IMG/VR virus record: IMGVR_UViG_3300021093_003079
Coordinates: 1 to 20,258 of that record
Origin: a virus
Length of the DNA stretch: 20,258 nt
Reading direction: 5' to 3' (one strand)
Shown piece by piece: positions 2,389 through 20,258 of the stretch. Both the position numbers and the translations under genes were made by a program. Position 1 is the stretch's first letter, and every line of letters starts with the position of its first letter. The notes beneath the pieces were generated by a model that saw nothing but the letters and a program-made list of their open reading frames with translations, was not told the DNA's origin and searched no databases.

Positions 2389-2891
2389 GTAAAAAAAGTA
2401 TAGCCGTAGTAACAGGAATAGGTCCACGTACAGGAACATCTTTTGTTATGCAACGTGCAATTCTAAGTGGTCTTCCAATAACAGGTAAAAAATTTATTGA
2501 TGGTTATACTGTAAAAAAGCATAATCCAGATGGTTATTGGGATACAGACCTTGAAACAATCCAAAATAACAACATTAATAAAACAGTAATTAAACTGTGG
2601 TATAATTCTCTTAAGTATATAGACCATGATTTAATATCTTGTATTGTTGTTCTAGAAAGAAAAAACAAATTAGCTCAACTAGCCAGTATGTACAAAGTAT
2701 ATCGTGATGAATATAAAATGACAAACATGGACGTTAATATCTCTGATATTTTTTACGACCACCACACAAAGTTACAACAGTGGTTAAATCAAAGAAACCA
2801 ACAAACAATTCTTAAAGTATATACTGAAGACTTAAATCAAGAATATCCAAATATTATATCGTTTTTAGAAAGAGGTTTATTATGCCAGTAA
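2385..2891 (+). CDS. Sulfotransferase-like P-loop protein (putative cargo gene)
   Basis: This 168-residue protein begins with a beta-strand followed by GIGPRTGTSFVMQ (residues 11-23). That closely fits the 5'-phosphosulfate-binding loop of PAPS-dependent sulfotransferases (G-x-P-R-S/T-G-T-S), including the common continuation -xxMQ...GGLP. A strand plus helix at residues 84-104 (CIVVLERKNKLAQLASMYK) has Arg92 and Ser101, resembling the 3'-phosphate-binding R...S motif. The protein is short for a sulfotransferase (usually 220-300 aa), so it may be minimal, use another substrate, or be a non-catalytic relative. It overlaps the terminase by 4 bases and the next gene by 10, so it is co-translated with the late operon although T7-like cores have no such gene. 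Four lines counted by hand are only 23-30 % G+C, well below the adjacent terminase, suggesting separate ancestry. The fold is likely; the substrate is unknown. Confidence 0.7.
   Translation: MSKKSIAVVTGIGPRTGTSFVMQRAILSGLPITGKKFIDGYTVKKHNPDGYWDTDLETIQNNNINKTVIKLWYNSLKYIDHDLISCIVVLERKNKLAQLASMYKVYRDEYKMTNMDVNISDIFYDHHTKLQQWLNQRNQQTILKVYTEDLNQEYPNIISFLERGLLCQ
2869..2875 (+). promoter_or_regulatory. Ribosome binding site for the gp14-like gene
   Basis: AAAGAGG ends 6 bases before the ATG at 2882, inside the 3' end of the preceding gene. It supports the 10-base overlap. Confidence 0.65.
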
Positions 2892-3532
2892 TAACAGCAT
2901 CAGTAATAATGGGCGGTATGGCTTTAGGTCAGGGAATTATGGGAGCTTTGGGCAGCAGCTCACAAGCAGCAGCCCAAGCTAAAGCAGCAGAAATCCAACA
3001 ACAACAAGCTAACTTTAGGGCACAGTGGGAAAACGAAGCTAACAATCGAAATATGATGAGAGCTTACCAAGCTAACTTGGAAAGAAATATTTTGATTGAA
3101 AAGGGTGCAAACATTGACCGTGCTTTACAAGAGTTATATTTAGATAAATCCTTTTCAAATCAAAAGGGAACTCTCAGTAAACAAACAAACGCAACCAATG
3201 CCCAGTTTCTGGGAACAATGAGCCAGCGTAATATTGGATCTAACTCAGGAACTGCTAGAGCTTTGCTAAGGCAAAATATGTCAAACATGCAAGCTAATCT
3301 AGTGGCTTTAAAAACTAACCACAGACAAGCTTATAAAGACATTGAAAACCAACAAAACCAAAAACTAAGTCAACGTCAGTTTTCATTCCAAGAACAACGA
3401 GCATTCTTACCAACACTGGGTGGAATTGCTGATAGCTCTTCCACAGCTTTAACAACTGGTTTAATATCAGCAGGGCTGGGTGGTATCTCTGAGGGAGTTG
3501 GATCGTACATGAAGTTTAAACCCACAGGATAA
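2882..3532 (+). CDS. Internal virion (ejection) protein, T7 gp14-like
   Basis: This 216-residue protein has a Gly/Ala/Met-rich hydrophobic N-terminus (residues about 4-27, VITASVIMGGMALGQGIMGAL). A long Ala/Gln-rich helical body follows (QAAAQAKAAEIQQQQANFRAQWENEANNRNMM and on), and near the C-terminus a second Gly/Ala hydrophobic stretch (ALTTGLISAGLGGISEGVG). This layout, and a size close to T7 gp14 (196 aa), match the internal virion protein B group. In that group the protein leaves the capsid first and forms a pore in the outer membrane at infection. The RNIGSNSGTARALL segment also resembles the conserved middle of such proteins. It has no cysteine. Being first in a run of three further large virion genes supports the role. 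Sequence similarity could not be computed here. Confidence 0.8.
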   Translation: MPVITASVIMGGMALGQGIMGALGSSSQAAAQAKAAEIQQQQANFRAQWENEANNRNMMRAYQANLERNILIEKGANIDRALQELYLDKSFSNQKGTLSKQTNATNAQFLGTMSQRNIGSNSGTARALLRQNMSNMQANLVALKTNHRQAYKDIENQQNQKLSQRQFSFQEQRAFLPTLGGIADSSSTALTTGLISAGLGGISEGVGSYMKFKPTG

Positions 3533-3538
3533 AACAAC

Positions 3539-4594
3539 ATGAACAACAATCTATTTAACCAATTACAAACTATGGCAATGCAAGCAATGCCTCAGAACTA
3601 CAGTCAACCAGAAACAGTTGACTCAGTTGTTGACAACGAACAAATTCAATTACTAGGGAAAAAAAGAAAACAAGTTTTTGAAATGTTTCCAGATAATTCC
3701 CAAGAAAGATTTAACTATTGGAAAACACAAATTGACACAACAGGCATGACCGCCAAGGCTAAACAAACTTATTGGAAAGACTATGAAGCAATGCACCCCG
3801 AAGGTATTGTTGGGGCTAAAAGAGACTTTGTTGATGTAACTAAAAGAGAATTAGATTATATTGAATCACCTGTAGCCAAAGAGTTTTTCTTAAGAGAACG
3901 ATTGGATAACACACCTGAGTGGGCTAGAAAAGAACTAGATCCCATCTTGGGTGAACTCAGTACTATTGTTGCCAACTCTAATTATGCCAAAGCTCAACAA
4001 GTTTATATGAAAGACTTGGATCTCAGGATTAACAGGTTTGCTGTGTTGGCTCAACTGGATCCAGATGTGTCAGTTGAAAACCACACCACCGATATTACAA
4101 AGCTAGAGCAAATGAATCTTCTTGAGGTTGCTAAAGTTGAACAAGGTAGAGTTGGGGTATATTCTAAGGGTGGTAAATTTATCCCAGCCTTTGGTTTACA
4201 AAGCAGAAATGATGTTTTTGAAAATGATTCTAATGGTTCTCCATCACTAGAAGAACAATCTGTAATCAGATCTCTAGCTCCGACTATTATTAAAAAAGCA
4301 ATCCAAGGAAACCTTGCCGTTGCTAGAAATAAAATCATGGCAGACGAAAGGGCTGGTATTGCTGTTGCTGAAAAATATCTAACTGACGGTGCTTTTAATT
4401 TTGATCAATGGGACACAGCATTCTCTATGTTACACAATGTTCCAATGTACGATAAAATTAAACTGGGACTGAGGGGTGAAATTACAGCTGGTAGAATTAA
4501 AACAGAGTCTGATCTAAAATCTGCTATATATCAATCCGTATCTAAATACAGTTCTTTTCTAGAAAAGAAAGAAAATAATAATGGCTCCACTTGA
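3539..4594 (+). CDS. Probable structural/ejection protein of unknown family
   Basis: This 351-residue, predominantly hydrophilic and apparently helical protein has no signal peptide, membrane segment, enzyme motif or cysteine. It begins with a Gln/Met/Asn-rich stretch (NNNLFNQLQTMAMQAMPQNYSQ), then a charged body including KRKQVFEMFPDNSQERFNYWKTQ at about residues 42-64. I do not recognise the family. It lies between the gp14-like gene and the lysozyme-tipped gp15-like gene, which makes an internal-core or ejection role likely; it might be an N-terminal piece of a split gp15-type protein. The ATG at 3539 follows the previous stop by 6 bases, with AGGA at 3526-3529 as a ribosome binding site. 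Its 3' end overlaps the next gene by 14 bases. Confidence 0.75.
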   Translation: MNNNLFNQLQTMAMQAMPQNYSQPETVDSVVDNEQIQLLGKKRKQVFEMFPDNSQERFNYWKTQIDTTGMTAKAKQTYWKDYEAMHPEGIVGAKRDFVDVTKRELDYIESPVAKEFFLRERLDNTPEWARKELDPILGELSTIVANSNYAKAQQVYMKDLDLRINRFAVLAQLDPDVSVENHTTDITKLEQMNLLEVAKVEQGRVGVYSKGGKFIPAFGLQSRNDVFENDSNGSPSLEEQSVIRSLAPTIIKKAIQGNLAVARNKIMADERAGIAVAEKYLTDGAFNFDQWDTAFSMLHNVPMYDKIKLGLRGEITAGRIKTESDLKSAIYQSVSKYSSFLEKKENNNGST

Positions 4595-7500
4595 TCCACT
4601 AAATCAACAAATATTTGAAGAAGGTCCCAAGTCCAGCGTTGGTATGGGCAGTGTTACTCCTTTTGTTTATCAAGAAACATATCCAATACTGCCAGCACCA
4701 ATCAACCCAAACATTGCTGTTACAGACCAACAAGCTTGGTATAAACTAGGTGCCGAAGCTTTTAATATTGCTGGTAAGTTATACGAAGAAGTTTTGGATT
4801 ATCAAATCAGTGGACAAGAAGCTAATATACAAGCACTTACTTTTGATTTAGAAGATAAAATAAATGATGCATCGGCAGCAGCAGAAATTAGAATTTTAAA
4901 TGGAACAGAGTCACAAAATCAAATTGCTAAAGATATGCAAGATTTTTATAGTAAGGAAAAAGAAACATTTAAAAACAAAGCAATTGAAATACTTGGGCAA
5001 AGTTCGTACGATTATTATATAGGCGAAAATTCTGACATTAGTTTATTAGGCACTAAATATAGAAGACTAGCATTACAAACAAGAAAAAGTAATTACGATA
5101 TTTCTAATACTATGCAAAAAGCAATGTTAACTTTAAATACAACATTGTTAAATCAAAACCAAAGAAGAGCTGCCAGCAATGAATTTTACTCAGGTCAAAC
5201 ACCCCTAGGACAACGGTCGCTTTCAACATCTGAAATATCAAGAAATGTTCCACTAGATCAAATAACAAGTGGTATAAAACCTTTGCAAGTAAATGAAAAA
5301 GGTATTCCTGTTGTGGGTTTTGACCCAAGTGGTAGAGAAGTTATGGTAGATTCAGCAGGGAATTCTCTTGTTACTAAGAAACCGGATGGGTCGTGGTACA
5401 TTAATCCTGCCGCTGATGTAATAACAACACTGTATCTTCAAAACCCAAATCAGTTAAGAAGCTTAGCAATTCAAAATGTAAATTTTAATCCAATTACATC
5501 GCAAGATGGAACAAGGATACACCCAGAGTATCAAAAAAACCTTCAACTTGCACTAAGAGGAAATATAAATCCTCAAAATTCTTTTTATTATTTTCAACAA
5601 CTGAGTATGGTTGACCCAAAAGCTTTAAGAAACCTAGTAGACGAACCAGGAAACTCAGATTTTACGAATATTGATTCTTCTATTCTAAGTGTTATTCAAG
5701 CTCTTGTCTCTAACAGTGCTACACCCCCACAAATTGAACGTGTTATACAAGAGTTTGAAGTTAGAAAAGAAGATGTAAAGCGTGTTTATAAAGTTTTTGA
5801 AGATCTTCGTTTTAATTCTAGTAGAACGATAGAATTTCAAGGGCAACGGGAAATACCGGAAGATTATAAAGATGTATTAACAGCTGCTAATGCCGTAGTT
5901 ACCTGGTTACAAACCAGAATAAACGAGCCTGGGTTTCAAGAGGAATATGGATTATCAACCGATAAATTTAAAGACGGGGGCGGTAAGAATGCAACTTTAC
6001 AAGATTTAATAGAAAACAACCAAATCTTTAAAGCTATGGTAACCCGTGCTTTTATAGCTGTACAAAATAATCCCCGTATTCCAACCATCCAAGGACAAGA
6101 AAGAAGAACTGAAATAGCAAATTTTATACCAGGGTTTCTAGAAAACGAATTTAACCATGCTCAGTTTTCTTTTGTTGAAGGTAAATTAGTTCAGGGAAGT
6201 AGTGTTAAGAATTTTATGGATGACTCAACCATAGACTCTATGATGCGAAACCTTAGAGGTTTACCCTCAGAACAACAAGAAACAATACGCAGTCAACTTG
6301 CAGCCCTTACAAACAAAGAAAGATTAGAAACAGCAGCCAGTGCTGGTTTGCTTGGTTATTACAATTCGGGTATTATACCCCAGAATCTTGATCCCCGAAC
6401 ACAAGAAGTAACTGGAGACAGCGCAGAAATAATTCGTGAAAAAGCAATAAAATTTATTAGAACAGTAAACTCAAAAGCTGACCTAAATTTAGCAAGTATA
6501 TTTATTAGAAACCTTAGTGATACTCAACTTACTAGGACTGGTTTAACCACATCCACAAATGCTTTAAATGACGCAACTCTTATTAGAATTGCTTTTGCCG
6601 TAGATCCTTCACTGCATGAAGACATATTAAGGGATAACGCTTACGTAGCATTTGATAAGTTAACCGAAGAACAACAACTACAAAGAGCTGTTGACAGTTT
6701 TAAAAGGCTTCCATCCAGTGAGTATTGGAATTGGAGGTTAGATACATTTGATGTAGACACAATGGAAACACCAAACTTAGAAAACCAACGGGGAGGAATT
6801 CCTTTGGGTATTGTTAGCATACCATTACTTGATGAAAATGGAATTCCACTAAAAGATGATACTGGTAAAGTAATAACATTCCAACCAGTAACTAAAGATA
6901 GCCTTTCTTCTAATGGTTCTTACATCCCACGATACAGTAATCAAGCTGGAATCGTGCAACCATCTATTTTAATGGGTGGCTTACAAACCACCGATTTTCC
7001 TAAGTATTTTATAAATAAAGGTGAAGAAAATTTCGGACACCTCCCCGCCGTGCGAAATAGTTTATTATTTCCAGCGGGTGTTTCCTCATCTTCAAAACAG
7101 CAAACAACTGAATTTTTACGAAACCCATATTTTTGGAACGAAATTACTGAAAATACACTTGACTATAGAGCGGATTTGTTTAAACAATTTTTAGCAAGCG
7201 AAAAAATTGACAATAAGGAAATAACATCAGCAGGTAGATTGGTTACGTTATTAGAAATCTACCCAACATTATTAAGTCAGTTAGCTGCTGGTGATTTTTA
7301 CTTTAGGGATATTCCAGACCCAGTGATTACTAGAGCTGCTCAACACTTTGCAGATGATAAAGGATTATTTAGTAAAGATGTAATGAACACAGTGTTTGAA
7401 AAAGGAAAATCACTTGGATTAAAAACATTTGATCAATACCTATCTCTTATGTTTACAGTTGCATCAGAATACTCTGATAACCGACAATATGATTTTGGTT

Positions 7501-9404
7501 ATAACTTTAGAGAAGCCGTTAAAGATCCAAACTTTGATGTTAATAATCCACCAAATAGAATGCCTATGGGATCTGCCAAGCAAGGTTTAATTTTATACAC
7601 CCCTACATCCGGTAGTTTTTCCAATGTAGGAGCTGAATTAATCAGTCAAGGTTATAACATTTATCAAAGTAAAACTAATCCAAACGAGTTCTACGCTTTT
7701 TCAAGCGACGAGTTTGCAGAAAATTCTGTTGAAAATTTAAACAATTTTTCTCCTGTATATATAACTAGATACAAAGCTGATGAGCAACAAAAGTCTGAGG
7801 ATATTTCTTTACCAACTTCACAAACAAAAGGAAAAAACCAAACGGTTCCTGGTTTGCCGGGTTGGTATGGTTGGTCGCCAAGTACAGTTATTAGTGGTGC
7901 AGCACAACCATCAAAAGAAATATCAGAAGGTACCTTTGTTGGTCCTCCCGATACAACTGGAGCTGCTGAAGAATTCTTGTCTGAATGGAAGACGCGGAAA
8001 GATAAACTGTTTGGTGCTAGTAGAGATGATCAACAAGATGCTATGTTTAGTGATTTGTTTAAGAACATGGATAAACAGAAAAAATCAAGTTATACCAAAC
8101 CACCCGTAGGAAATTTAAAAAGACAATGGCAAAACTTTAAGAATAAAATATCAACTATATTGCCCGATATTAAACAAGGGCTAGATAAAATGGAAAACTG
8201 GAAACAAGAAACTCCAGTTGGTGAATTAGAGCAATCAAGAATTCAATCCGCAAGAGATGCTGGTAGGCTGGTTAGAGAATTCCTAGAAAGAGCAAAGGGA
8301 GAACCTTTGGGTACATATAACCCTGTAACTGGAAAAGGCGGTATTGAAGGTTTATTGCCCCAACCCCAGCAGTTACTTACACTACCCCTAGTGCCAATGC
8401 TTTTTATGTTTGATAATTTAAAATCAAAACAAGACTCAAACAACAAATTGTCAGAAGAACTACAAGAAACTATAGATGCTATAAAAAATAACACACTGAC
8501 TAAAGAAGAACAAAAAGTTTTAGATAGTATGTCTAAAATATTAAATAATTTACCACCTTCTAAAGATACATCAGTAACTAAAGAAATTGGTTCCTTTGGA
8601 ATGATTGGAGAAAAAAACAATCCTGATGTAGAAGAAGCAACAGTTAAAGTGGTTGAATCTAGATTCCCATCTGTTTGGAATCCGGATGGTTCAATATCAA
8701 GTATTAAAACAATTTCATTTCAAGAAACAAAAAATGGTCCTCATATTTTAATTCCAACTATTAAAAATGGAAAAGTAATGACTGATGCGGAAGCTATAGC
8801 AGAATACAGAAAAACCAAAGAACACTTTGGTATTTTCAGCACTGTGGAAAAAGCAAACAAACAAGCAAAAGAATTACACGATATTGAAGAAGCTAAAGGC
8901 AAACAGATTGAACAAGGTTGGATGGCTATAATCAATGCTTCTGAAGGCATGGAAACAAAAGCATACAACAAAGATGGTAAGTGGACTATAGGTAAAGGCT
9001 CAACAATACATCCAGATGGACGACCAGTTAAAAAGGGTGATGTTATTGCACCAGAACAAGCCGACCTATATGCAAGACATTACGTTTATACAAGGGTTGT
9101 TCCACAACTACGAATCAGTATTCCAACTTGGTATGAAATGAACTCTAACCAACAAGCTGCAATAATATCTTTTGCATATAATGTTGGTGAATATTTTTAT
9201 AACCGCACAGGATTTGAAACAATTACTAAAGCTTTAAAAACCAAAAACAATTGGGGACTTGTTCCCTCAGCTTTGCCTTTGTATAACAAAGGTATGAATT
9301 TAAAGACTGGTAAAAAGGAAGTATTAAATGGTTTGATAAAAAGACGGCAAAAAGAAGCTGAATTGTGGTTACAAGCGCCGACAACAATATTAGAAGGAAA
9401 ATAA
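4581..9404 (+). CDS. Large internal virion protein with C-terminal lysozyme domain (gp15-like, peptidoglycan-degrading)
   Basis: This 1607-residue protein has an N-terminal region of about 1200 residues that is hydrophilic, helical and Gln/Asn-rich, without recognisable enzyme motifs, as expected for a gp15-type core protein. A Pro/Leu hydrophobic patch (LLTLPLVPMLFMF) lies near residue 1263. Residues about 1351-1438 form a small domain seen in large phage virion proteins (motifs ISFQE, ILIPT, DAEAIAEYRKTKEHFGIF). Residues about 1444-1598 are a GH24 phage lysozyme with Glu1455, TIGKGST, an AAIISFAYNVG core and the GLIKRR-E signature near the end. It probably travels with the ejected proteins and opens peptidoglycan during entry. 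T7 instead puts a transglycosylase at the N-terminus of gp16. There is not one cysteine in 1607 residues. The start overlaps the previous gene by 14 bases, with a weak purine-rich (AAAGAAAGAAAA) ribosome site. The stop abuts the next ATG directly. Confidence 0.85.
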   Translation: MAPLDPLNQQIFEEGPKSSVGMGSVTPFVYQETYPILPAPINPNIAVTDQQAWYKLGAEAFNIAGKLYEEVLDYQISGQEANIQALTFDLEDKINDASAAAEIRILNGTESQNQIAKDMQDFYSKEKETFKNKAIEILGQSSYDYYIGENSDISLLGTKYRRLALQTRKSNYDISNTMQKAMLTLNTTLLNQNQRRAASNEFYSGQTPLGQRSLSTSEISRNVPLDQITSGIKPLQVNEKGIPVVGFDPSGREVMVDSAGNSLVTKKPDGSWYINPAADVITTLYLQNPNQLRSLAIQNVNFNPITSQDGTRIHPEYQKNLQLALRGNINPQNSFYYFQQLSMVDPKALRNLVDEPGNSDFTNIDSSILSVIQALVSNSATPPQIERVIQEFEVRKEDVKRVYKVFEDLRFNSSRTIEFQGQREIPEDYKDVLTAANAVVTWLQTRINEPGFQEEYGLSTDKFKDGGGKNATLQDLIENNQIFKAMVTRAFIAVQNNPRIPTIQGQERRTEIANFIPGFLENEFNHAQFSFVEGKLVQGSSVKNFMDDSTIDSMMRNLRGLPSEQQETIRSQLAALTNKERLETAASAGLLGYYNSGIIPQNLDPRTQEVTGDSAEIIREKAIKFIRTVNSKADLNLASIFIRNLSDTQLTRTGLTTSTNALNDATLIRIAFAVDPSLHEDILRDNAYVAFDKLTEEQQLQRAVDSFKRLPSSEYWNWRLDTFDVDTMETPNLENQRGGIPLGIVSIPLLDENGIPLKDDTGKVITFQPVTKDSLSSNGSYIPRYSNQAGIVQPSILMGGLQTTDFPKYFINKGEENFGHLPAVRNSLLFPAGVSSSSKQQTTEFLRNPYFWNEITENTLDYRADLFKQFLASEKIDNKEITSAGRLVTLLEIYPTLLSQLAAGDFYFRDIPDPVITRAAQHFADDKGLFSKDVMNTVFEKGKSLGLKTFDQYLSLMFTVASEYSDNRQYDFGYNFREAVKDPNFDVNNPPNRMPMGSAKQGLILYTPTSGSFSNVGAELISQGYNIYQSKTNPNEFYAFSSDEFAENSVENLNNFSPVYITRYKADEQQKSEDISLPTSQTKGKNQTVPGLPGWYGWSPSTVISGAAQPSKEISEGTFVGPPDTTGAAEEFLSEWKTRKDKLFGASRDDQQDAMFSDLFKNMDKQKKSSYTKPPVGNLKRQWQNFKNKISTILPDIKQGLDKMENWKQETPVGELEQSRIQSARDAGRLVREFLERAKGEPLGTYNPVTGKGGIEGLLPQPQQLLTLPLVPMLFMFDNLKSKQDSNNKLSEELQETIDAIKNNTLTKEEQKVLDSMSKILNNLPPSKDTSVTKEIGSFGMIGEKNNPDVEEATVKVVESRFPSVWNPDGSISSIKTISFQETKNGPHILIPTIKNGKVMTDAEAIAEYRKTKEHFGIFSTVEKANKQAKELHDIEEAKGKQIEQGWMAIINASEGMETKAYNKDGKWTIGKGSTIHPDGRPVKKGDVIAPEQADLYARHYVYTRVVPQLRISIPTWYEMNSNQQAAIISFAYNVGEYFYNRTGFETITKALKTKNNWGLVPSALPLYNKGMNLKTGKKEVLNGLIKRRQKEAELWLQAPTTILEGK
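8631..8897 (+). other. Small phage virion-protein domain before the lysozyme
   Basis: This encodes residues about 1351-1439 of the 4581-9404 gene. It has a D-G-S-x-x-x-I-x-x-ISF beta hairpin, a strand ILIPT, a turn NGKVMTDAEAIAEY and a helix KTKEHFGIFSTVEKANKQAKELH. I recognise this pattern (LIPT...DEAI..YR.TG.H.G.F......A...A..LH) from large phage virion proteins as a recurrent small domain, often near peptidase or lysozyme domains. Its function is not known to me. Confidence 0.6.
8910..9378 (+). other. GH24 (T4-type) lysozyme domain
   Basis: This encodes residues about 1444-1599 of the 4581-9404 gene. The catalytic region reads SEGMETKAYNKDGKWTIGKGST, with Glu1455 as the expected acid, Asp1465 and Thr1469. 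In T4 lysozyme the spacing is Glu-x8-Asp-x5-Thr; here it is Glu-x9-Asp-x3-Thr, so one residue is missing and the Asp is displaced. The conserved core NQQAAIISFAYNVGEYFY and the C-terminal GLIKRRQKEAELW are well kept, so the fold is secure and activity is likely. Confidence 0.85.
9392..9398 (+). promoter_or_regulatory. Ribosome binding site for the giant gene
   Basis: AGAAGGA lies 6 bases before the ATG at 9405, within the last codons of the lysozyme-tipped gene. It supports initiation exactly one base after the TAA at 9402-9404. Confidence 0.7.
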
Positions 9405-12400
9405 ATGTCAAAAATTTATAACGAAAGTTTTCTTATTCCGATAGGTACAAAACCAAGAAAGTTTCCTGAGTACACAAAACTAAGAGATATCCAGTACCAA
9501 CCGTGGCAAAGCGAAACAAAGGATTTAATACCTTCTACAAACTTAGATGATATAAGCAATCCAATTAATTGGTCACTGTTTCCCCCAAAAACAAGTATTA
9601 CCGATGCCGAAGCACGTTCTTTAAGGGATCTTGCTCAGCTATCTACTAATGATGTTTTAAACAATGCGTGGACTGGTTATGGAAAAGACCCAAGTAAAGC
9701 TTTGTTCCTTAGAACATTGTTAAACCAAGACCCACTAACCGAAATAATGGTCAGCGACACCGAAGTTAACAGTGACGGTATTAATAAAAGACAAGAACAA
9801 TTAAGAAGAATCGCTGAGTCTACTCCAGAAATCCTGAACTTACCTGAAACAAAAAACCAAGCTTTACGACTAAAACAAGAACTTAACTATATTCATAGAA
9901 AACAAAACCAAATAAAAACAAGATATTCAGAATTTAGTACAGCAGATTTTTATCGGGGACAAGAAGGAATTCTTGGTGGTGTTGTTCAAAAATCAATTGC
10001 TAATGTATACGACTTACTGAACAACCGTACTTTTAGTTTGGAGGGAGGATATAATGTTTTAGAAACATTTGATGAAGTTTTAGGAACATCTTTAATACCT
10101 GATTCTTTAAAAGAATTTGTTGTAAGACCATCAACATCAACCAAAGATGTTGAAAATTTGGTTTCTAGATTTGATGAAACTTTTAATTATAATGAATGGT
10201 TTGAAGACACCGTTACTAAAAACAACTCATTTGTTGCTGCTGGCTTACTGAACGCAGGCATCAGTAATGAAACTTTTGCACTAGCCAGAAACGCTGATCA
10301 TGCTTACATGATGTTAACCAGTAAACTTCTAAGTAACCATATAGATAAGCGACTATCAAAATACCACCCAAGTTCTTTTCAAGAGTGGGTAAGAAATAAA
10401 CCTATTTCACTAGCACAGGGTATTGTTAATTCGGGTGCTGACCTTGCTGCTGAAGCTGGTATTGAACTTGGTATTACTACGCTACTAGCAATGTTACCAG
10501 AAGCAACTTCTAAGGTTGGCGCTGGCGTTGGAGTTGTTAGACTTGGTACTAAAGCTTCAAGATTTTTTGACATTTTTAAAAAATCATTGGGAACAACTGC
10601 ATATGCTATTGGTGTTGGAGATGTACCAAGGTATGCTTTATCTTGGGGTTTGGTTAGAAGAACTGGAATGTCTTATCTTCCTGGATTTGTTGGTAGTGGT
10701 GCTGTCAGTATCCTTGGTCAAAACAGTGACCTAGCATTAGCTAATGCGCTTTATCACTATAACCCCGACATGAAATCAGATTTCTCTTGGGGCGAAGTAG
10801 GAGTAACTGCTGCTTTAGGTGGTGTATTCAGTGCTGGTTTAGGTTTGGGTTTTAGAATTCCCGAAGTTGCTTTAACGTGGAATAGAAACCGCCAAATAAA
10901 AAATATGTTTTATTCAGCCTTTTCTATTGAACCACCAAAAGAACTATTACAACCATACCCTTGGAATATTACTGCTAGTAATATTTCTAGTTTTTTAAGT
11001 AGAAAACCAAAGGTTATTACTGAAGATCCTTTACTAAAAACTGTTAACAAATCTTTATTACAGGGAACAGAACCTAGCTTAGAACAACAAAACGCAGACG
11101 CAAGAGCAAACGCAGAAGCTGTTAGTGCATCTAGGGTTGTTGACAATGTTGAACACACAACAAATATTCCTGAAGATCTAAAGGTTCAAAGACTAGATAC
11201 AGAAATACCTGAACAATTTATCAGTAGGTTTATACAGAGTACTAAAACATGGGATGACTCTAGTTTAGCTGTGCTTCTTGATGGGTTATCTCCAAACAGA
11301 AACTTTGATAAATTAACAACAAGAGAACAATTTGCTGTTCTACTAGAGTTGGAAGATTTTGATGTTGCAACAGTCCTTAATAAAGTCATTAGCAATAAAA
11401 GAAGTGAAAAGGTTTTATCAAGTGTAGAAAAAGAAACTTTAGATTTTCTAGAAAAAACAGTGTATGCTGGTTTTAAAAAAGATTTACTTAGTAAATCTTA
11501 TGGTGTTATTAAAAAACTAAGTGAGCAAGACCAAGCAGCTGTTAGACAAGCTAGGGCTGAAGGAAAACCAATTGGTCCTAGAGTTGTTTCTGACAGTGTT
11601 GAAGAGGCTAAAAAAACTGCACAATCAATTTTTGATTCTGTACAAGATTCTGTAAGAAGTAAAAATTCGGTAGTTATACCGAAAATAACTGAAGCTGTAC
11701 CACCAGCAGCCGCAGTTGTACCACCAGCAACCACAGTTGTACCGCCAGTAACCGCAGCTGTGCCCCCGGCAACTAAAGCTGTAACACCGACAACTAAAGC
11801 TGTACCACCGGTAACTAAAGCTGCGCCTACGGTTAAGCAAGAAAAAATAGATGAAGTTACTGAAGATGTTCAAAACGAAATTGAAGCATCTACCACCCAA
11901 GAAATTGAGAACAATGCTGAAAACATACAAGACAGTATTCGCCATAAACTTTTTGGTGGTATCGAACCAAAAACAAACCTAAAGAGATTGGCAGCCACTA
12001 AGCGAAAGAAACTGGGACTGTCACCCGAAAAGCAAAAGAAAGTATTACAAGTATTACAAAACCCAGTAAACTTTTTAAAACTTGCCCAAGGAAACACCGA
12101 ATATATTTCTAATTTCTTTGAAAGAATCAGCTCTAACAAATTAGGATATTCAAAAGAATCTGTCAGAATTATTCTAGCAGCTACTGTAAATCTAAATTGG
12201 AACTCATCAGCGGCTAGAAAAATTTCTGAACTTAATATATTAGAGGCAGGCAAACGATCTAAAGTTAATGCTCTTACGGGAGATGTTAGCATAGAGTCAA
12301 AAGCTGATGACATAGGAAATCTTTTACATGAAATCGGTCATGTCTTTGGGTTGTTTGACTACAGTGCTACTGTACAAAAAATAGCTTTACAAACTGATAG

Positions 12401-15400
12401 ATCATTAATAGACTTTCACGCAGCAGCGTTGGGTTTAGATAAAGTAAAAGACAAAGCAATACTGAGATATTTTACAGCAAACCCTGATGAGCTTTACGCC
12501 CAAGCATTTGCAACACTGATGCTTGATCGGGTTAGGTTGTCAGTTTTTATGAAAGATGCTTCGGCTAAATCACCAGCCATTATAAAAGCACTGCAAAAAA
12601 CTTTTGAAGTAGTTGTAGAATCTTTACTAAATATTATTGATACTTTAAAGTTAGATAAAGTCTATAACGACAGTACTTTATTAGAAACGGTTAAAAGGGG
12701 AATTGAATCAGTAGAAAGATCAGCAGACCCTATTCTTACACAGTACCAGTACTTTAGACTTGTAGTAAATGATATTATAGAAGCTGCAAAAAATAAAAAA
12801 GTAAAACTGAAAAACATTGTTGAGATTACAGATCTAGCAGACAAACTAAATTCTACTATTGAAAAAGAAATAGGAAAAACTATAAAAAAAGACCCTAGGT
12901 TTAAAACTAGGAAAGCAGACAAAAGACTGGGTGATTCGCTTGTTTCACAAAAATTCTTATTTGATGTAAATGAATTGCACTCTCTTATTGGTTTTATTAA
13001 ACAACTGGGTGTAAGTAATACAATAGAACTAAACATAGTAGTAGATGCTTTTATACAAACTAAGATACAAGGACTTTCAACAGATAATGTTTCTAGGTTT
13101 AACGCAGTCTTTTTAGAGAATCTTAAAACTAATCAAATAGTATTTAACACAGTAGTGTTTAACTTCTTAAAAGATATGGCAGCACTAGGAAACAAGGAAG
13201 CAAGAGAGTTAGACTTAACTTCTATTCCAGTGGGCAAAGAAAAAGAAATTGCTGAACTATTATCTAAAAAAATCAGTGGATTAAGTGAAGTTACTGCGGG
13301 TGACGATTTAGCAGCAAGACCCACATTTAGGTTTGCTACTTTAGACGAAACAATATCTTACTTCCAAAAACGCCAAACAGCAAAAAAGAAGATAATAGAA
13401 AAACAAACAAAAACTCCTTCAATTAGAATTCAAACAGGGCTTAAGTCACAAATGGTGGAGAAGCCCCGCGTTGACACTAAATCAAAAGATTTACTTGCAC
13501 CACCTCGCACACCTGGGGACAATGAAGCAGCTGACGATGCTTATAAGTTTGATGTACAAGAATTGTTCTTTGACAGGCGATTTTCAAATAAAGCTTTTGA
13601 AATCCTAGGAATAAGTAATATCTGGGAACAAAATGTTGTTAATACATTTGGTTGGTCCTTTAAAGAAACTGAAGTAAATTATGAATTTGTGGGTAAAGAA
13701 ATGGCGTGGGATGAAGAAGGTAATAATTCTTATATAGATATTATTTCAGAAGAAACAAAACTTAACTATGAACTAGAAAACTTCTGGGATGATGTAAAAT
13801 TATACGACAAAAATAAACCAGAAAATGTTGAAAAAATAATAGTAAAAATTCCAGACGAAACATCTGGGGTAACTGCTTATAGAGCATACTTTGTTGACGT
13901 TACAAAAGCTAAACAAATTCTAGAAAAATTTGGTATTAAAAAAAGTGTTTCAGAATTTCTTACAGAAGCAACTTTAGTTGCTCCTGAAGGTAATGCTAAA
14001 AAAGCATATGATAAATTAGTTACACGTAAATCTTTATTAATTAACAATTTACTTTTTAAACCAACAAAGAAACAACTACAACAAGCTATAGAAAAATTCC
14101 AAGAATATGTAGATAAAACAAACTCATATGACTTGGCAGGATTTGCTTCTTATGTTGGAAGAAAAGAAGATGGACGAAAAACAACCTTAGCTCAACTTAG
14201 CCCAATGTGGCTACGTTTTAATTTAACAAAAGAACAATTAAAAAACCGGTTATTGGAAGACTTGGATGATGAGGCGCAAGGCGGCAGCGAACTTTATGCA
14301 CCGCCAAGAGAACCGAATAAAGACCTAACCCCCATAGCAACCTTGCAAGAAGAAGTTGATATGCGGACTGATCTTTCTATGAGTGCTTTTGAAAGAAAAT
14401 TACTTTCTCTTGGAATTACTGCAAAGGACTATGATAATTATTATAAGAAAGTTTTACCAGATCAGAAAGCTACAAAACAAAATAGAACCGAAGTTCAAAC
14501 TGATATACTTAAGTTAATTATAGAAGATATTCAGGCTGAAAGATTAATTGTAAAATCAAACATGGATGGAAATTACTCAATTAAAAAAGCTAATGCTATT
14601 CAGCAAGAAAGAAATCCAGTAGTAAAACAAAACATTAAAAAAGATATTGAGAAATTAACTGAAGAACTAACTCCAGAATCTCCTGTTACTGTAGAAACAG
14701 TAAATGCTTGGTTTGCTAGTGATAGAGCAATAAAATTGGTTGGTAAAAAGATCCGAAGAAATAATTTTGAAATAGCCGTTGATGAAACTCTAGAAAAAAT
14801 AAAAAAATCAAAATTTATATTAGATGAACAAGGTAAAATAGTTGGTATTAAAGATAGTGAATCTTTTAAAACAATTGAAGATTTAGAAAAATTATTCCAA
14901 AAATCCGTTGATAACCAATACAAAACTATTCAGGGACAACTTAGTGGTAGCTCTAGAGCTGGGCTAACTGGAAAAAATTGGCGAGCGTTTATTGATAGAC
15001 GAAACGAAGGCATTCCAGAAGATAAACAACTAAGGTCAGAAAAAAACGAAACAGATGAACAATGGCTAGTAACAGAAAAAAAAAGATATTCTGAATTATA
15101 TCGTGAGTTTGAAAAAGAATATAAAAGTAACGCAGTATTTGGTTCTGTGATTACTGCTGAGGATGAAAGTGGAACAATAGCTGTTATCTCATCAGTTGAA
15201 GAAAGAGAAAAAGAACCATTAGCTAGAACAGCTAGAAATACTATGTGGTCTGAAAGAATTAATGTATTAGATCCAGAAGGTAAGACAGTCTTTAAAAATA
15301 GAATACCAAAAGTAGAACGAAAAGACAAATGGATTTGGGAAAGACTTAGAAAAGACAAATCCACAAAAGAAATTCTTGAAGAAGCAATTGATCCATCTGT

Positions 15401-18400
15401 TATAAGAAAAATCGGAGTTATTACCGAAAAAGAAATTGAAAATTCCAGAAATCGTGTCATAAAAAATATTAGAGAGTTGTTTAAGAAGTTGCATGGAAAA
15501 GACCTAGACGGTTTAACTGAAGTTGAACAAGTAACTTTTATTGAAGAATATCTAAAAAACAAAGACAAGGTTCCAGACCCAGAACCAGCAACACGCGAAG
15601 AAGTAATACAAGAAGCTATTAGAGAAACCGAAGAGCGCGAGCAACAGTTAACTTTGTTTGACACAGTAAATGAAACTGACTTAAATAAACCAACAGAAGA
15701 CCCCATTGTTTCTGTACCCAACGCCGCAGAAGATGTTACTGTTGTTATTCATCCTGAAGGTACAACACCTAAAGTAACCCCACTAACGCCCCATGTTAAT
15801 CCACAGATTGGTGTAAAAGCTGCTAAAAAACTAAAACAACAAATCATCACTACAGCCCCAACCAAACAAATTGATTGGACTACAGCTGATTTTAAAAAGT
15901 ATGATGACGCTAAGGGTGAGGTAAAAAATAAATTTTATTATAATTTAAAAATTATACAAGGAGTGCTGGGTAGTTTGCCAGAAGAAATGTTACAAGGTAG
16001 AAAAGTTGATGAGTTGCTGCAAGGGTTTGAAAAACTATTTGCAGACCGACAAGAAAAAGAAGCTGTAAAAATATTTTTAAGTTTAATGAAAGAATTAAAT
16101 ATTGAAGGTGTTAGAGTTGTTAATCCTAAGGGTAAAACTATTTACAAGTTTATATGGGATACTGCGGAATGGTCTTATGGTGGTATAACAAGATCAACAA
16201 TCAAACCTGAAGTTACTGAAACAGTTAAACCTGAAGTTACTGAAACAGCTAAACCTGAAGTTACTGAAACAGCTAAACCTGAAGTTACTACTAAGGTTGG
16301 TAAACCAAAAGTTATGCCAACACAAAAAGCTCCAAATAATAAAGATGTTCCTATAATTCAAAGAACAGAAAAACAGCCCAAAACAATTCCATCTATCCTA
16401 CCAGTAGTTACAGAAAGTGATAGAGTCTTTATTCACATGTCTGAAGGCAACGAAGCAATGCGTGATAACGGCACAGATGTCAGTTCTTTTGTTGGCTTGC
16501 TTAAGAAATATCTAAGATCTTTATCAGAAAAAGATAGAAAAACTTTAAGTGGCAGCATTCCAGATAAATTTAAAGAGTTGTTTTTAGAGCTGGTTGATAT
16601 CAACGCTCGTATTATGTTTTACAATAGAGAGTTGTTTCAAGATGAACTTATTGTACAACGCTTTTGGAAAGCTGTAGATTCAATCTTAGCACAAGAAGAT
16701 AGTGCCGGTATTAAACTACGTGTACAAAAAAGTTTAAAACAAGTTTATACTGAAGCTGCTCAAAAAGTTTCTACCCCCACCAAAAAATTTGTTTCACCTC
16801 TATCCCATGAAACCGTAGTGTTTGCAAATAAAAAAATTAAACTAGGTTTTGTAGATAAATTAACTCAGGGAATTATGGATGGGACTGTTGAAATCAAAGC
16901 TCCTGAAAAACCAATAAAAATAGAAGAACCAAAACCTTTACCGAGTTCTAAACCAGTAATTGAACCACCCAAGGTTGAAAAAGAAGTACAAACAAAAAAA
17001 GAAAAACTAACTGAGAATGCGTTAATAGACAATATGTTAGATGTTGTAAAAAACTATTGTTCTCATTTATTAAGACAAAATAATTGGGTATCTTGGATAT
17101 TTGGTGGGGATGAACGATCTAATAGAAACCGGTGGCGAGCTGCTATGTCGGGTACTGTAAACTTTATTCAAAGAGCGCAGCTACAAGGAGTAACAGTTAG
17201 ATCATTAGATGAAACTTTAAGATTCCTTTCTGCGTTAATGGATGACTCTAGGACAATGACTGGTCACTTAGTTGCCCCAAACACTAAACCAATCAGATCA
17301 TTTAACGGAGCTTTACAAGAATGTTTTTCAACACTTTCCAATCTGACTAAGGTACACAGATTATTACAGGCCGAAGCTAAGGATCTTGGTTTAAATAAGG
17401 AACAACGGTCAGCTTTGTTAAGACTGCAATGGCAAACATGGACCAAAAAAACCTCGCCTACAGCTAAAGAACTAAAAGATGTACTTGGTTTTGATAAAGA
17501 TTACACAACCTTGGAAAAAATTTTTAGTGAGTATAGAAGACAACTTCTATATATTAACAAAGAAATTTTGGGGTTAGAAGAAAAAACAGAGTGGAGAGCT
17601 GTAATTGATAAGAATGGTAATCCTGTTGATGCTGATGTATACTTACCAATTCAGATTAAAGTTGATAAAGTAAGAGAAAAAAAAGAAGATCCAGAACTTT
17701 TTAAAAAATTAATTGATAGTTTAGTTCTTACCAGAACAGCATCCAAATTAAAGGATGATGTTTTAGATGTACACACTTTAATAGTAATGGGTATTTTAAA
17801 CCTAGAGACTCAACCAAGCACTTTGTTTGGAAAGAATAAAAAGTTTAAACTTAGTTCATCTATACCTTTGGATAAAAAAACTTTAGAAAACTTGTTTGTG
17901 CATAGAGTTGAAATCAGCGGATATAAAGATTTATCAAAAATTGAAATGTCAACAGAATTAGGAAAACCAGGTAAAGATTACTTTCTGGTTGAAGAACCAA
18001 ATAAAACATCTGCTTCTGTATATAGAATTCCTAAAAAACTAGAGGATCTATCTGAAGCTGACCAAGTAAAATATAGAGAAACAATTAGTGGCAGTATGGT
18101 ACATGTTTTACCAGAATGGAAAAAAGAATTAGGTGGTCAATCTCTTATTGAGAAAGAAATAAAAGACTTGTTAGACTTTAAAGCAAAGGTTGGTAAATAT
18201 ACAAAAGCACGTTCAATGACAAAAGATGGTAGACCAGTTATTGATTTAGATGATAATGATTTTTACATGACTTCTGTAAGAAACTTTTCAATAGAAGAAG
18301 TTTTATCTAACCAAGACTTATTTGAAATAACCCGAACCGACCTACATGCAGCATTTCAAAACTTTGCAAGAAATCGTTTGTTTAATTTAAAAGTGCAAGA

Positions 18401-20258
18401 AACAATTGATCAGCTTGCTGGGCAAACTGGGTTGCGCCTAGCTAGGTTGTTTGAAGGGTTGGAAGAAAGAGTACTAAAATTCATTGATGAACACGAGAGT
18501 ATAAAGGACAAGAAAAAAAGAAAAAAAGATGCCGAATTAGGATTTACTAGGTTATTGTGGCAAGCTGCTATATGGAACGGCACGGCTTCAAGAAACAGAA
18601 CAGAATATGGATATTCATCTTACCCAGCAGAAATGGCGGGTGATTTGGTAAATATGCTCAGTGGTCCTGCTTGGGGTCTAGCGCAATCTCCTGAATTAAC
18701 AGGAGAACTGATTGCAAGTTCATTACAAACCAAAGGATCTAGTTTAGTTATGGGTCCATTTAAAGGGTTGTTAAATCTGTTAAAAGTTTGGGATAGAAAT
18801 GATTCTTCTGTTAAAAATGATGTTTCTGATTTAATGACCTCTTTTGAAGATTTTTCAGCTACCCACTCATCTCACTTCAGTGATGGTTTTGCTGATATTG
18901 ATTTTGATTCTACTGATGATATCTACAGACGTATATTAGACTTAGAACCAGACGATGAAAGTAAATTAGCTTGGTTGGCAAACAAGAGTAAAAAACTAGG
19001 ACAAATAGCAGTTATTTCTAGTGGTATTAATGATAACACTAATTTAACTAGGTTTTATGCCAAGGGTAGATTTATCAGAATGGTTAGAGAACAAATTTAT
19101 TCTGGCAAGTTAAAAAAGTTTTTGCAGTTGCGTGAAAATGCCAGGGAAGAAATGTCTGTCTTATTAGCCGATTCTAAGTATAATGTTTCGTCTGAAAGAT
19201 TGTTGTGGAAGAAGCACAAAGCATTAGCTCGCCAAGCCGGTTTAAACCCTCGTTTAGCCCTTGCTTGTACTAGGTGTGGTCTAGATACGGTCGAATCGTT
19301 AGAAGCCTTGGTATGGGGTTTAAACCACATTAAAGCTGTAAATAACATAATTGACTTCAGGGATCTTACACTAGCCCATATTGAACTGTCAGAAATGAAT
19401 AACCCACCAGTAGACCCCAAGTTATTTCAAAGAACAATTAATGCATTTGGCACTGGGATTGAACGTTTGATAAGAAAGAGAAGCGTTACTTCTGAGTATG
19501 GTTTAAATCAAGTCATAGGGGATATGGAAAGAAGTTCTACTTTCCGGTGGCTGCATAAACTAACAAACTACATGAGAACGTGGTTTGACGATAGAATGCT
19601 CAGTATTCCGGAAACAGGGGTAACTAAATTTGCTATTGGTTCTGTTATTGCACTAGGAACATGGGAACTGAGTTGGACTTTAATGAGAGAGTGGATGAAG
19701 GGTCGGGATATGGAAGATATTATAACTGAAATCGAAGAAGATCCTTGGAAGTACATTGTAAGATATATTACAAGATTACCTATGTTTGGATCTTTTAGTC
19801 CTGTGTTTGAAGGTATTATTTCTTTAGTTGCTGGAGCTTTAAATCTTACTGGACCACAAAATAAAAGGTTAGGTTTTCAACAAGGTTTGAATGCAAGCAT
19901 TATGCAGCTTGGAACCGGAGGTATAGGTATTGGTTCTAATGTTATCTCATCATTTATTAACAAATTATTGGATATTCCCGAAACATATGGACTCGGTGTT
20001 ATAGGTCTACCCATTAATAATTCCCCTTACGCACTCCCAGTAAGGTTGCTTGAAGAAAGTAGAGATTTTGAAAGACAATCAGCAATTCAGTTTATTATTG
20101 ATGGTATGCAAAACAAAGAACGCCCATACATAGAAAGAGGTCGATCATCTAGAACATCTGTTTCGGATAATGTTCCAATACCAGCTGTAGATTACCCAGT
20201 TAATAAGTTGAACATGCAAGACCCCAAAGTTAGAGAAATGGCATACCCTGATTATAGA
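9405..20258 (+). CDS. Giant multidomain internal virion/ejection protein with metallopeptidase motif (partial, runs off window)
   Basis: Hand translation from the ATG at 9405 gives 3618 codons without a stop up to the last base, so the gene is 3'-incomplete. Visible parts in order: hydrophilic N-region (1-337); Gly/Ala-rich hydrophobic region (about 338-490); seven-fold Pro-rich heptad linker (764-811); zinc-peptidase-like domain with HEIGHVFGLFD at 975-985 and NPDELYAQAFA at 1026-1036; long charged helical region; QLTLF at 2081-2085; four-fold KPEVTETA linker (2267-2298); further Pro/Lys linker (about 2497-2537); helical C-region; hydrophobic Gly-rich segments from about 3406. Only four cysteines are visible (2552, 2640, 3288, 3291). 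Place and hydrophobic segments suggest the T7 gp16 role (1318 aa), but it is nearly three times as long. Modular make-up also recalls polyvalent proteins delivered by phages. Sampled lines in the middle are 18-28 % G+C versus 38-43 % nearer the N-terminus and 33-50 % nearer the C-terminus. No RNA polymerase motif was found. Confidence 0.85.
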   Translation, partial: MSKIYNESFLIPIGTKPRKFPEYTKLRDIQYQPWQSETKDLIPSTNLDDISNPINWSLFPPKTSITDAEARSLRDLAQLSTNDVLNNAWTGYGKDPSKALFLRTLLNQDPLTEIMVSDTEVNSDGINKRQEQLRRIAESTPEILNLPETKNQALRLKQELNYIHRKQNQIKTRYSEFSTADFYRGQEGILGGVVQKSIANVYDLLNNRTFSLEGGYNVLETFDEVLGTSLIPDSLKEFVVRPSTSTKDVENLVSRFDETFNYNEWFEDTVTKNNSFVAAGLLNAGISNETFALARNADHAYMMLTSKLLSNHIDKRLSKYHPSSFQEWVRNKPISLAQGIVNSGADLAAEAGIELGITTLLAMLPEATSKVGAGVGVVRLGTKASRFFDIFKKSLGTTAYAIGVGDVPRYALSWGLVRRTGMSYLPGFVGSGAVSILGQNSDLALANALYHYNPDMKSDFSWGEVGVTAALGGVFSAGLGLGFRIPEVALTWNRNRQIKNMFYSAFSIEPPKELLQPYPWNITASNISSFLSRKPKVITEDPLLKTVNKSLLQGTEPSLEQQNADARANAEAVSASRVVDNVEHTTNIPEDLKVQRLDTEIPEQFISRFIQSTKTWDDSSLAVLLDGLSPNRNFDKLTTREQFAVLLELEDFDVATVLNKVISNKRSEKVLSSVEKETLDFLEKTVYAGFKKDLLSKSYGVIKKLSEQDQAAVRQARAEGKPIGPRVVSDSVEEAKKTAQSIFDSVQDSVRSKNSVVIPKITEAVPPAAAVVPPATTVVPPVTAAVPPATKAVTPTTKAVPPVTKAAPTVKQEKIDEVTEDVQNEIEASTTQEIENNAENIQDSIRHKLFGGIEPKTNLKRLAATKRKKLGLSPEKQKKVLQVLQNPVNFLKLAQGNTEYISNFFERISSNKLGYSKESVRIILAATVNLNWNSSAARKISELNILEAGKRSKVNALTGDVSIESKADDIGNLLHEIGHVFGLFDYSATVQKIALQTDRSLIDFHAAALGLDKVKDKAILRYFTANPDELYAQAFATLMLDRVRLSVFMKDASAKSPAIIKALQKTFEVVVESLLNIIDTLKLDKVYNDSTLLETVKRGIESVERSADPILTQYQYFRLVVNDIIEAAKNKKVKLKNIVEITDLADKLNSTIEKEIGKTIKKDPRFKTRKADKRLGDSLVSQKFLFDVNELHSLIGFIKQLGVSNTIELNIVVDAFIQTKIQGLSTDNVSRFNAVFLENLKTNQIVFNTVVFNFLKDMAALGNKEARELDLTSIPVGKEKEIAELLSKKISGLSEVTAGDDLAARPTFRFATLDETISYFQKRQTAKKKIIEKQTKTPSIRIQTGLKSQMVEKPRVDTKSKDLLAPPRTPGDNEAADDAYKFDVQELFFDRRFSNKAFEILGISNIWEQNVVNTFGWSFKETEVNYEFVGKEMAWDEEGNNSYIDIISEETKLNYELENFWDDVKLYDKNKPENVEKIIVKIPDETSGVTAYRAYFVDVTKAKQILEKFGIKKSVSEFLTEATLVAPEGNAKKAYDKLVTRKSLLINNLLFKPTKKQLQQAIEKFQEYVDKTNSYDLAGFASYVGRKEDGRKTTLAQLSPMWLRFNLTKEQLKNRLLEDLDDEAQGGSELYAPPREPNKDLTPIATLQEEVDMRTDLSMSAFERKLLSLGITAKDYDNYYKKVLPDQKATKQNRTEVQTDILKLIIEDIQAERLIVKSNMDGNYSIKKANAIQQERNPVVKQNIKKDIEKLTEELTPESPVTVETVNAWFASDRAIKLVGKKIRRNNFEIAVDETLEKIKKSKFILDEQGKIVGIKDSESFKTIEDLEKLFQKSVDNQYKTIQGQLSGSSRAGLTGKNWRAFIDRRNEGIPEDKQLRSEKNETDEQWLVTEKKRYSELYREFEKEYKSNAVFGSVITAEDESGTIAVISSVEEREKEPLARTARNTMWSERINVLDPEGKTVFKNRIPKVERKDKWIWERLRKDKSTKEILEEAIDPSVIRKIGVITEKEIENSRNRVIKNIRELFKKLHGKDLDGLTEVEQVTFIEEYLKNKDKVPDPEPATREEVIQEAIRETEEREQQLTLFDTVNETDLNKPTEDPIVSVPNAAEDVTVVIHPEGTTPKVTPLTPHVNPQIGVKAAKKLKQQIITTAPTKQIDWTTADFKKYDDAKGEVKNKFYYNLKIIQGVLGSLPEEMLQGRKVDELLQGFEKLFADRQEKEAVKIFLSLMKELNIEGVRVVNPKGKTIYKFIWDTAEWSYGGITRSTIKPEVTETVKPEVTETAKPEVTETAKPEVTTKVGKPKVMPTQKAPNNKDVPIIQRTEKQPKTIPSILPVVTESDRVFIHMSEGNEAMRDNGTDVSSFVGLLKKYLRSLSEKDRKTLSGSIPDKFKELFLELVDINARIMFYNRELFQDELIVQRFWKAVDSILAQEDSAGIKLRVQKSLKQVYTEAAQKVSTPTKKFVSPLSHETVVFANKKIKLGFVDKLTQGIMDGTVEIKAPEKPIKIEEPKPLPSSKPVIEPPKVEKEVQTKKEKLTENALIDNMLDVVKNYCSHLLRQNNWVSWIFGGDERSNRNRWRAAMSGTVNFIQRAQLQGVTVRSLDETLRFLSALMDDSRTMTGHLVAPNTKPIRSFNGALQECFSTLSNLTKVHRLLQAEAKDLGLNKEQRSALLRLQWQTWTKKTSPTAKELKDVLGFDKDYTTLEKIFSEYRRQLLYINKEILGLEEKTEWRAVIDKNGNPVDADVYLPIQIKVDKVREKKEDPELFKKLIDSLVLTRTASKLKDDVLDVHTLIVMGILNLETQPSTLFGKNKKFKLSSSIPLDKKTLENLFVHRVEISGYKDLSKIEMSTELGKPGKDYFLVEEPNKTSASVYRIPKKLEDLSEADQVKYRETISGSMVHVLPEWKKELGGQSLIEKEIKDLLDFKAKVGKYTKARSMTKDGRPVIDLDDNDFYMTSVRNFSIEEVLSNQDLFEITRTDLHAAFQNFARNRLFNLKVQETIDQLAGQTGLRLARLFEGLEERVLKFIDEHESIKDKKKRKKDAELGFTRLLWQAAIWNGTASRNRTEYGYSSYPAEMAGDLVNMLSGPAWGLAQSPELTGELIASSLQTKGSSLVMGPFKGLLNLLKVWDRNDSSVKNDVSDLMTSFEDFSATHSSHFSDGFADIDFDSTDDIYRRILDLEPDDESKLAWLANKSKKLGQIAVISSGINDNTNLTRFYAKGRFIRMVREQIYSGKLKKFLQLRENAREEMSVLLADSKYNVSSERLLWKKHKALARQAGLNPRLALACTRCGLDTVESLEALVWGLNHIKAVNNIIDFRDLTLAHIELSEMNNPPVDPKLFQRTINAFGTGIERLIRKRSVTSEYGLNQVIGDMERSSTFRWLHKLTNYMRTWFDDRMLSIPETGVTKFAIGSVIALGTWELSWTLMREWMKGRDMEDIITEIEEDPWKYIVRYITRLPMFGSFSPVFEGIISLVAGALNLTGPQNKRLGFQQGLNASIMQLGTGGIGIGSNVISSFINKLLDIPETYGLGVIGLPINNSPYALPVRLLEESRDFERQSAIQFIIDGMQNKERPYIERGRSSRTSVSDNVPIPAVDYPVNKLNMQDPKVREMAYPDYR
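10416..10872 (+). other. Gly/Ala-rich hydrophobic region of the giant protein
   Basis: This encodes residues about 338-489. Several hydrophobic, small-residue-rich stretches occur in succession: GIELGITTLLAML, VGAGVGVV, TTAYAIGVG, YLPGFVGSGAVSILG and VTAALGGVFSAGLGLGF. They look like membrane-active or amphipathic helices rather than a soluble enzyme core. This fits a channel-forming ejection protein. Confidence 0.5.
11694..11837 (+). repeat. 21-base tandem repeat encoding a Pro/Val/Ala/Thr heptad linker
   Basis: Six full 21-base units (11694-11819) and a seventh shortened one encode AVPPAAA, VVPPATT, VVPPVTA, AVPPATK, AVTPTTK, AVPPVTK and AAPTVK. The units are degenerate at the DNA level, so the repeat is old or under protein-level selection. 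It lies at residues 764-811 between the N-terminal hydrophobic part and the peptidase-like domain and probably acts as an extended spacer. Confidence 0.9.
12291..12530 (+). other. Zinc metallopeptidase-like domain core
   Basis: This encodes residues about 963-1042 of the giant protein. HEIGHVFGLFD at 975-985 has the HExxH zinc motif and matches the longer metzincin pattern HExxHxxGxxD, where Asp985 would be the third ligand. Downstream NPDELYAQAFATLM (Glu1029) resembles the third-ligand helix of gluzincin-type peptidases found in large phage proteins. Catalytic Glu976 is present. Which class applies cannot be told by eye; a Met-turn is not evident. Confidence 0.65.
15645..15659 (+). other. 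Candidate sliding-clamp-binding peptide QLTLF
   Basis: This encodes residues 2081-2085 of the giant protein, between a charged helix (REETEEREQ type) and a polar, Pro-containing linker. QLTLF fits the bacterial beta-clamp-binding consensus QL(S/D)LF apart from Thr at position 3. The position in a probably disordered stretch is right for such a peptide, but a five-residue match is weak by itself. Confidence 0.3.
16203..16298 (+). repeat. 24-base tandem repeat (4 copies) encoding KPEVTETA
   Basis: Four units begin at 16203, 16227, 16251 and 16275. The first three are identical apart from GTT/GCT at the last codon, and the fourth diverges at its end (KPEVTTKV). Near-perfect identity suggests recent slippage expansion. 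The encoded acidic/Pro linker (residues 2267-2298) separates the middle and C-terminal parts of the giant protein. Confidence 0.95.
19620..19995 (+). other. C-terminal hydrophobic Gly-rich segments of the giant protein
   Basis: This encodes residues about 3406-3530. VTKFAIGSVIALGTWELSW is a transmembrane-like segment. It is followed by an acidic/aromatic stretch, then FEGIISLVAGALNLTGP and LGTGGIGIGSNVISSF. A run of this kind (R-x-P-x-x-G, hydrophobic helix, then GP) is common near the C-terminus of large podovirus internal virion proteins and supports a membrane-channel role. Confidence 0.5.

Follow-up and report, generated by a model that had tools for sequence, protein, structure and literature searches.

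A giant late gene in T7-like phages probably encodes a polyvalent-type virion protein with one variable central cassette

The window analysed here, the whole 20,258-base stretch of an IMG/VR virus record, closes with a single giant open reading frame (9405..20258, plus strand; 3618 codons) whose 3' end lies beyond the contig. Its product is probably a polyvalent-type virion protein, packed into the particle alongside the internal virion proteins and delivered to the cell with the DNA. This reading draws on the uninterrupted gene, its genomic context, the ADP-ribosyltransferase (ART) domain of its relatives, an invariant HEIGH...E motif and its likeness to the phage polyvalent proteins described by Iyer et al. 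2017 (PMC5512222); against it stand the facts that the window protein matches no database domain, that its zincin-like character comes from a motif and that its own cassette is without a match. Phage polyvalent proteins are already known as a class, and the giant protein is best read as a new family among them, in T7-like phages; no prior description of this gene family was found in a literature search.

The frame starts with ATG and runs to the contig end without an in-frame stop, and the earlier note was correct in describing a single frame of at least 3618 codons from position 9405 to the end of the window. On base composition alone, a frame this long would stay open with a probability of about 10^-130, and every 300-codon block has the same coding pattern of GC by codon position, low at position 3, a uniformity that gives no sign of a hidden frameshift. 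As the window is a record of 20,258 bases, the missing 3' end is a matter of the contig limit. Relatives run about 75-95 residues beyond the last conserved block and the window copy has 41 of these, so that the stop would be expected some 35-55 codons past the contig end, which probably leaves the window copy complete but for its last ~35-55 residues. At the other end, the ATG follows immediately upon the stop codon of the gene at 4581-9404 and is preceded by a Shine-Dalgarno-like AGAAGGA (9392..9398, plus strand, read from the sequence), whose overlap with the end of that upstream gene suggests translational coupling with the giant frame.

Relatives were sought in IMG/VR with TerL as the probe, which gave 20 loci; five short contigs have a TerL 98-100% identical to that of the window, and others one that is 80-85% identical. 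The whole giant gene is present in four distinct relatives, each time as one uninterrupted frame: 4311 codons in G001 (65.5 kb), 3631 in G002 (60.9 kb; gene at 49241-60136), 3888 in G003 (39.8 kb) and 3586 in G008 (51.6 kb), the last found via the 351-aa gene described below. G004 holds a truncated near-copy of the G001 gene. The relatives' proteins align with that of the window end to end at 27-37% overall identity. G002 and G003 are sisters: identity between their giant proteins is 95-100% in the first 700 residues and 79-91% in most of aa 3100-3600, but falls to 28% at aa 1300-1400. The unusual length of the frame might suggest a fusion, through sequencing errors or assembly, of what are in fact several genes. 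We consider this extremely improbable, as one frame is kept in five independent assemblies at the divergence just given and the codon-position signal is uniform; as far as sequence allows, the idea is refuted. Homologues in which the region is divided into several separate genes, which the earlier note had proposed looking for, number zero among the relatives examined, all four full-length copies being one frame.

The genes ahead of the giant frame, all on the plus strand, are those of a late operon. A T7-type TerL (700..2388; phrog_38, E=9e-93; PF22530, E=1.8e-28) is followed by a 216-aa protein (2882..3532) that resembles gp14 in size and position, without detectable homology to T7 gp14, by a 351-aa protein (3539..4594) that is conserved in the group at 46-60% and is an internal virion protein candidate by position, and by a large protein of 1607 aa (4581..9404), likewise a candidate internal virion protein, with a C-terminal GH24 phage lysozyme domain at aa 1454-1592 (PF00959, E=1.7e-17). 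The window and its relatives have a common gene order, namely TerL, in some a P-loop/sulfotransferase-like gene, then the gp14-like, 351-aa, large and giant genes. In G002 no further gene follows the giant gene ahead of a terminal repeat of ~227 bp, and this genome also encodes an RNA polymerase (phrog_414, E=7e-142), primase/helicase, DNA polymerase, portal, major capsid protein, both tail tube proteins and fibres. We assign the phage to the T7-like Autographivirales by the T7-type TerL of the window and the single-subunit RNA polymerase (phrog_414) of G002, the polymerase evidence coming from that relative, with none seen in the window fragment itself. This gene set agrees with the podovirus-type late operon recognised in the earlier note. 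The window TerL is only about 35-39% identical to those of cultured Autographiviridae, so that this is a separate lineage, a group of unisolated phages related to T7.

The ~227-base repeat stands at both G002 ends (L034 1-226 and L037 12224-12450, differing by a one-base indel in a G tract), and the G002 genome is therefore probably complete. The giant gene takes up 18% of it, and 20% of the G001 genome. In textbooks, T7-like phages stand for a small genome and internal proteins of modest size. The small podovirus genome that had been supposed for the window phage does not fit relatives of 60.9 and 65.5 kb; in this lineage a single late protein, which is probably ejected, accounts for a fifth of a 61-65 kb genome. 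The first 22 bases of the G002 end repeat recur behind the giant gene in G003, and this common sequence is possibly a terminal repeat or packaging signal.

In pairwise BLASTP, the alignments of the window protein with three relatives break at the same place and leave aa ~1262-1744 unaligned. The protein is accordingly laid out, by blastp boundaries and alignments, as a conserved N-terminal block (aa 1-1262; 9405..13190, plus strand) with 28-29% identity to relatives, a variable cassette (aa 1263-1743; 13191..14633, plus strand) and a conserved C-terminal block (aa 1744-3578; 14634..20138, plus strand) in which identity reaches ~47% across aa 2534-3577. The central piece measures about 300 aa in G002, 690 aa in G003 and 1140 aa in G001. 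This constant-variable-constant layout is unusually clear. Two repeat tracts also lie within the gene on the plus strand: 21-bp tandem repeats that encode a Pro/Val/Ala-rich linker at aa ~762-810 (11687..11833), and a 98%-identical 24-bp tandem repeat in 3.6 copies that encodes a KPEVTETA linker (16203..16289) and whose copy number is probably variable.

The cassettes of the relatives are where an enzyme can be recognised. That of G002 contains ART-PolyVal PF18760 (E=1.9e-16, above the gathering score), that of G003 matches the same family more weakly (E=1.9e-4), and that of G001, which is similar to the G003 cassette (E=3e-10), contains an ART-like domain. The H, Y and D positions that Iyer et al. 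2017 (PMC5512222) give for this ART clade align in G002 and G003, and G001 has N for D. For comparison, a survey of sequenced viruses found ARTs in only about 3% of podoviruses (PMC9503650). Since the variable site of relatives carries an ADP-ribosyltransferase, the suggestion of the earlier note that the gene may carry host-takeover domains is broadly supported; their delivery with the genome is an inference. The cassette of the window (aa 1263-1743) gives no ART signal, with no match to PF18760, and matched nothing by tblastn against 50,697 phage records or by PDB profile search. A degenerate ART in this cassette was considered and is unsupported, comparison with the relatives having given no ART signal.

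The peptidase motif that had been noticed in the window proved to be invariant. A zincin-like metallopeptidase motif, H975-E-I-G-H979 with a downstream E1029 (12327..12491, plus strand), is found in all five homologues, the window included: each giant protein has one HEXXH, always HEIGH and at the same aligned place, and the glutamate 50 residues downstream is conserved in all five. Polyvalent zincins have been described as bearing HEXXH and a downstream Glu (PMC5512222), and HEIGH...E conforms to this zinc-ligand signature of zincin-like metallopeptidases. Pfam gave only sub-threshold matches to zincin families (Astacin 0.16, ATLF 0.077 in G001), and the assignment is likely rather than proved; the giant protein likely carries a zincin-like peptidase domain, its superfamily taken from the motif only. 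ART-PolyVal and the zincin-like motif thus occur together in the giant protein of relatives, and the window has the zincin-like motif and a cassette without a match.

In the description by Iyer et al. 2017 (PMC5512222), phage polyvalent proteins are neighbours of late genes, bring zincin peptidases together with HYD-type ARTs, and are expected by prediction to enter the cell by injection. The points of likeness are a giant late gene beside virion genes, a zincin-like motif, variable domain content and, in relatives of the window phage, a HYD-type ADP-ribosyltransferase, the described polyvalent family PF18760 being above the cut-off in G002 and without a counterpart in the window. In the window and the relatives alike, the giant gene sits among late virion genes, downstream of TerL and the internal-virion-like genes. 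It differs from the described proteins in belonging to a T7-type phage genome and in having one exchange site between two long constant blocks. T4 Alt is comparable in principle, as an ART cargo that supposedly enters together with the DNA (a likeness to the relatives); unlike the giant protein, it is a separate small protein of a T4-type phage, and its ART clade is R-S-E rather than the H-Y-D clade found here (PMC5512222).

Other giant or ejected virion proteins offer a different comparison. The N4 virion RNA polymerase (Schitoviridae, 3500 aa) is a packaged giant protein and resembles ours in size and in an internal HEXXH motif; ours, however, has no RNA polymerase module by Pfam or PHROG match, the polymerase being a separate phrog_414 gene in G002, and it gave no match to the N4 vRNAP profile, including the C-terminal part of the vRNAP family. 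T7 gp16 (internal virion protein D), which is 1318 aa long as the earlier note had said, resembles the giant protein in being the largest late-operon protein, near internal-type proteins. The relationship to gp16 itself, proposed from position, did not hold up: there is no detectable homology, the gp16 gene is upstream of the tail fibre gene whereas the giant gene is last, downstream of TerL, and the giant protein has an exchangeable enzyme cassette, with a lysozyme in the gene adjoining it. Comparison by hhalign with T7 gp14, gp15 and gp16 found nothing, with a gp16 probability of at most 1.4%; the T7 proteins entered as single sequences, a comparison that could miss remote homology to gp14-16.

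These comparisons bear on the main rival explanation, that the protein is mainly a structural and ejection machine, an oversized counterpart of T7 gp16/gp15 that would form the core and trans-envelope channel, with the ART and the peptidase as minor additions. The clustering of the giant gene with internal-protein-like genes and a lysozyme-bearing gene suits such a role, as do a prediction of mostly helical structure (in low-confidence models) and the C-terminal 1000 residues, which are the most conserved and include a hydrophobic segment in relatives. The ejection-type hydrophobic ends of the earlier note stood only in part: in the window copy they are weak, the best Kyte-Doolittle 19-residue mean being 1.64 near aa 465 and a second region near aa 3460 reaching about 1.4-1.5, and near the C-terminus three relatives have one clear segment (2.1-2.2). 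We nevertheless regard this explanation as unlikely, given that no profile match to T7 gp14, gp15 or gp16 was found, that the protein is nearly three times the size of gp16, and that the cassettes of relatives are non-homologous and include an enzyme domain. T7 gp16 itself combines ejection and enzymatic functions, so the two readings are not exclusive.

If the giant protein is of the polyvalent type, it would be made late, from the last gene of the structural operon, be packaged together with the internal virion proteins and enter the cell with the DNA or ahead of it. The two conserved blocks would do the packaging and ejection, the embedded zincin-like domain would cleave either the protein itself or proteins of the host, and the central cassette, which is exchangeable, would serve as the cargo that acts on the host, an ADP-ribosyltransferase in relatives and some other activity in the window. 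Alternatively, the product might be a late cytoplasmic effector or polyprotein that acts in the producing cell and is never packaged. A last gene after the structural genes would be in keeping with this, and an embedded peptidase-type motif would fit a self-cleaving polyprotein; we think it very unlikely all the same, as the giant gene is tightly coupled to internal-virion-like genes in every relative and phage ART/zincin polyvalent proteins are typically late and virion-linked (PMC5512222).

A more specific proposal sees the giant protein as an unchanging delivery chassis that has one slot for cargo, in which the zincin cuts hydrophobic-Ala-Pro motifs flanking the cargo and frees an effector in the host. 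In the window the relevant segment would lie between LLAPPRTP (aa 1363) and LYAPPREP (aa 1630; 13491..14318, plus strand), two candidate boundary or cleavage sites for which there is weak evidence. In the window, G002 and G003, Ala-Pro motifs flanking the cassette match 3 to 4 times where about 0.4 matches would be expected. As they are absent in G008 and the pattern was chosen after seeing the data, we keep the cleavage motif only as a lead and find the proposal as a whole quite unlikely; if it were true, the ~267-residue cargo of the window would be an undescribed effector. On the broader polyvalent reading, the polyvalent-effector strategy would extend to T7-like phages, and the conserved ends would mark a cargo slot, so that any sequence they enclose in further members becomes a candidate for a host-modifying domain, a simple route to undiscovered effectors.

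Searches with the giant window protein, whole and in slices, gave nothing credible in Pfam, PHROG and NCBIfam scans or in PDB profile searches, a phrog_25538 match being discounted as it covers the Pro-rich linker. Neither conserved block matches an LPD or any other polyvalent domain described so far; an LPD38 at the C-terminus, suggested by the resemblance of RLPMFG to PLxRFG, was unsupported by a search whose control also matched nowhere. In scans that rest on short conserved peptides or BLAST sensitivity, tblastn of aa 1-3000, 1-1221, 1263-1743 and 2534-3577 found no match in the 50,697 phage records, nor did a C-terminal profile in 84,980 prokaryote genomes. AlphaFold2 models, built on 4-5 homologues, were unusable (mean pLDDT 34 for aa 1-1140 and 44 for aa 2534-3577).

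Several smaller observations concern the neighbouring genes. Just ahead of the terminase genes, an 82-aa protein (179-427) resembles a one-piece spanin in having an LGAC lipobox and a hydrophobic segment at its C-terminus, and a 76-aa frame (390-620) that overlaps it ahead of TerL is a candidate small terminase (DNA maturase A). A 168-aa protein (2385-2891), encoded between TerL and the gp14-like gene, has a P-loop/sulfotransferase-like start, GPRTGTS; it has no match in Pfam or PDB, is strongly variable among relatives (37-46%) and is absent from G001. The G008 counterpart of the 4581-9404 gene (L056 10932-16793) has no Pfam lysozyme match and instead a HELTH motif near its end, at about aa 1745, with a weak eCIS_core match (E=0.2), which suggests domain exchange in this gene also. 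Finally, a contig whose TerL is 98% identical to that of the window has ~280 extra bases near the 3' end of its 351-aa gene (L006 3918-5291).
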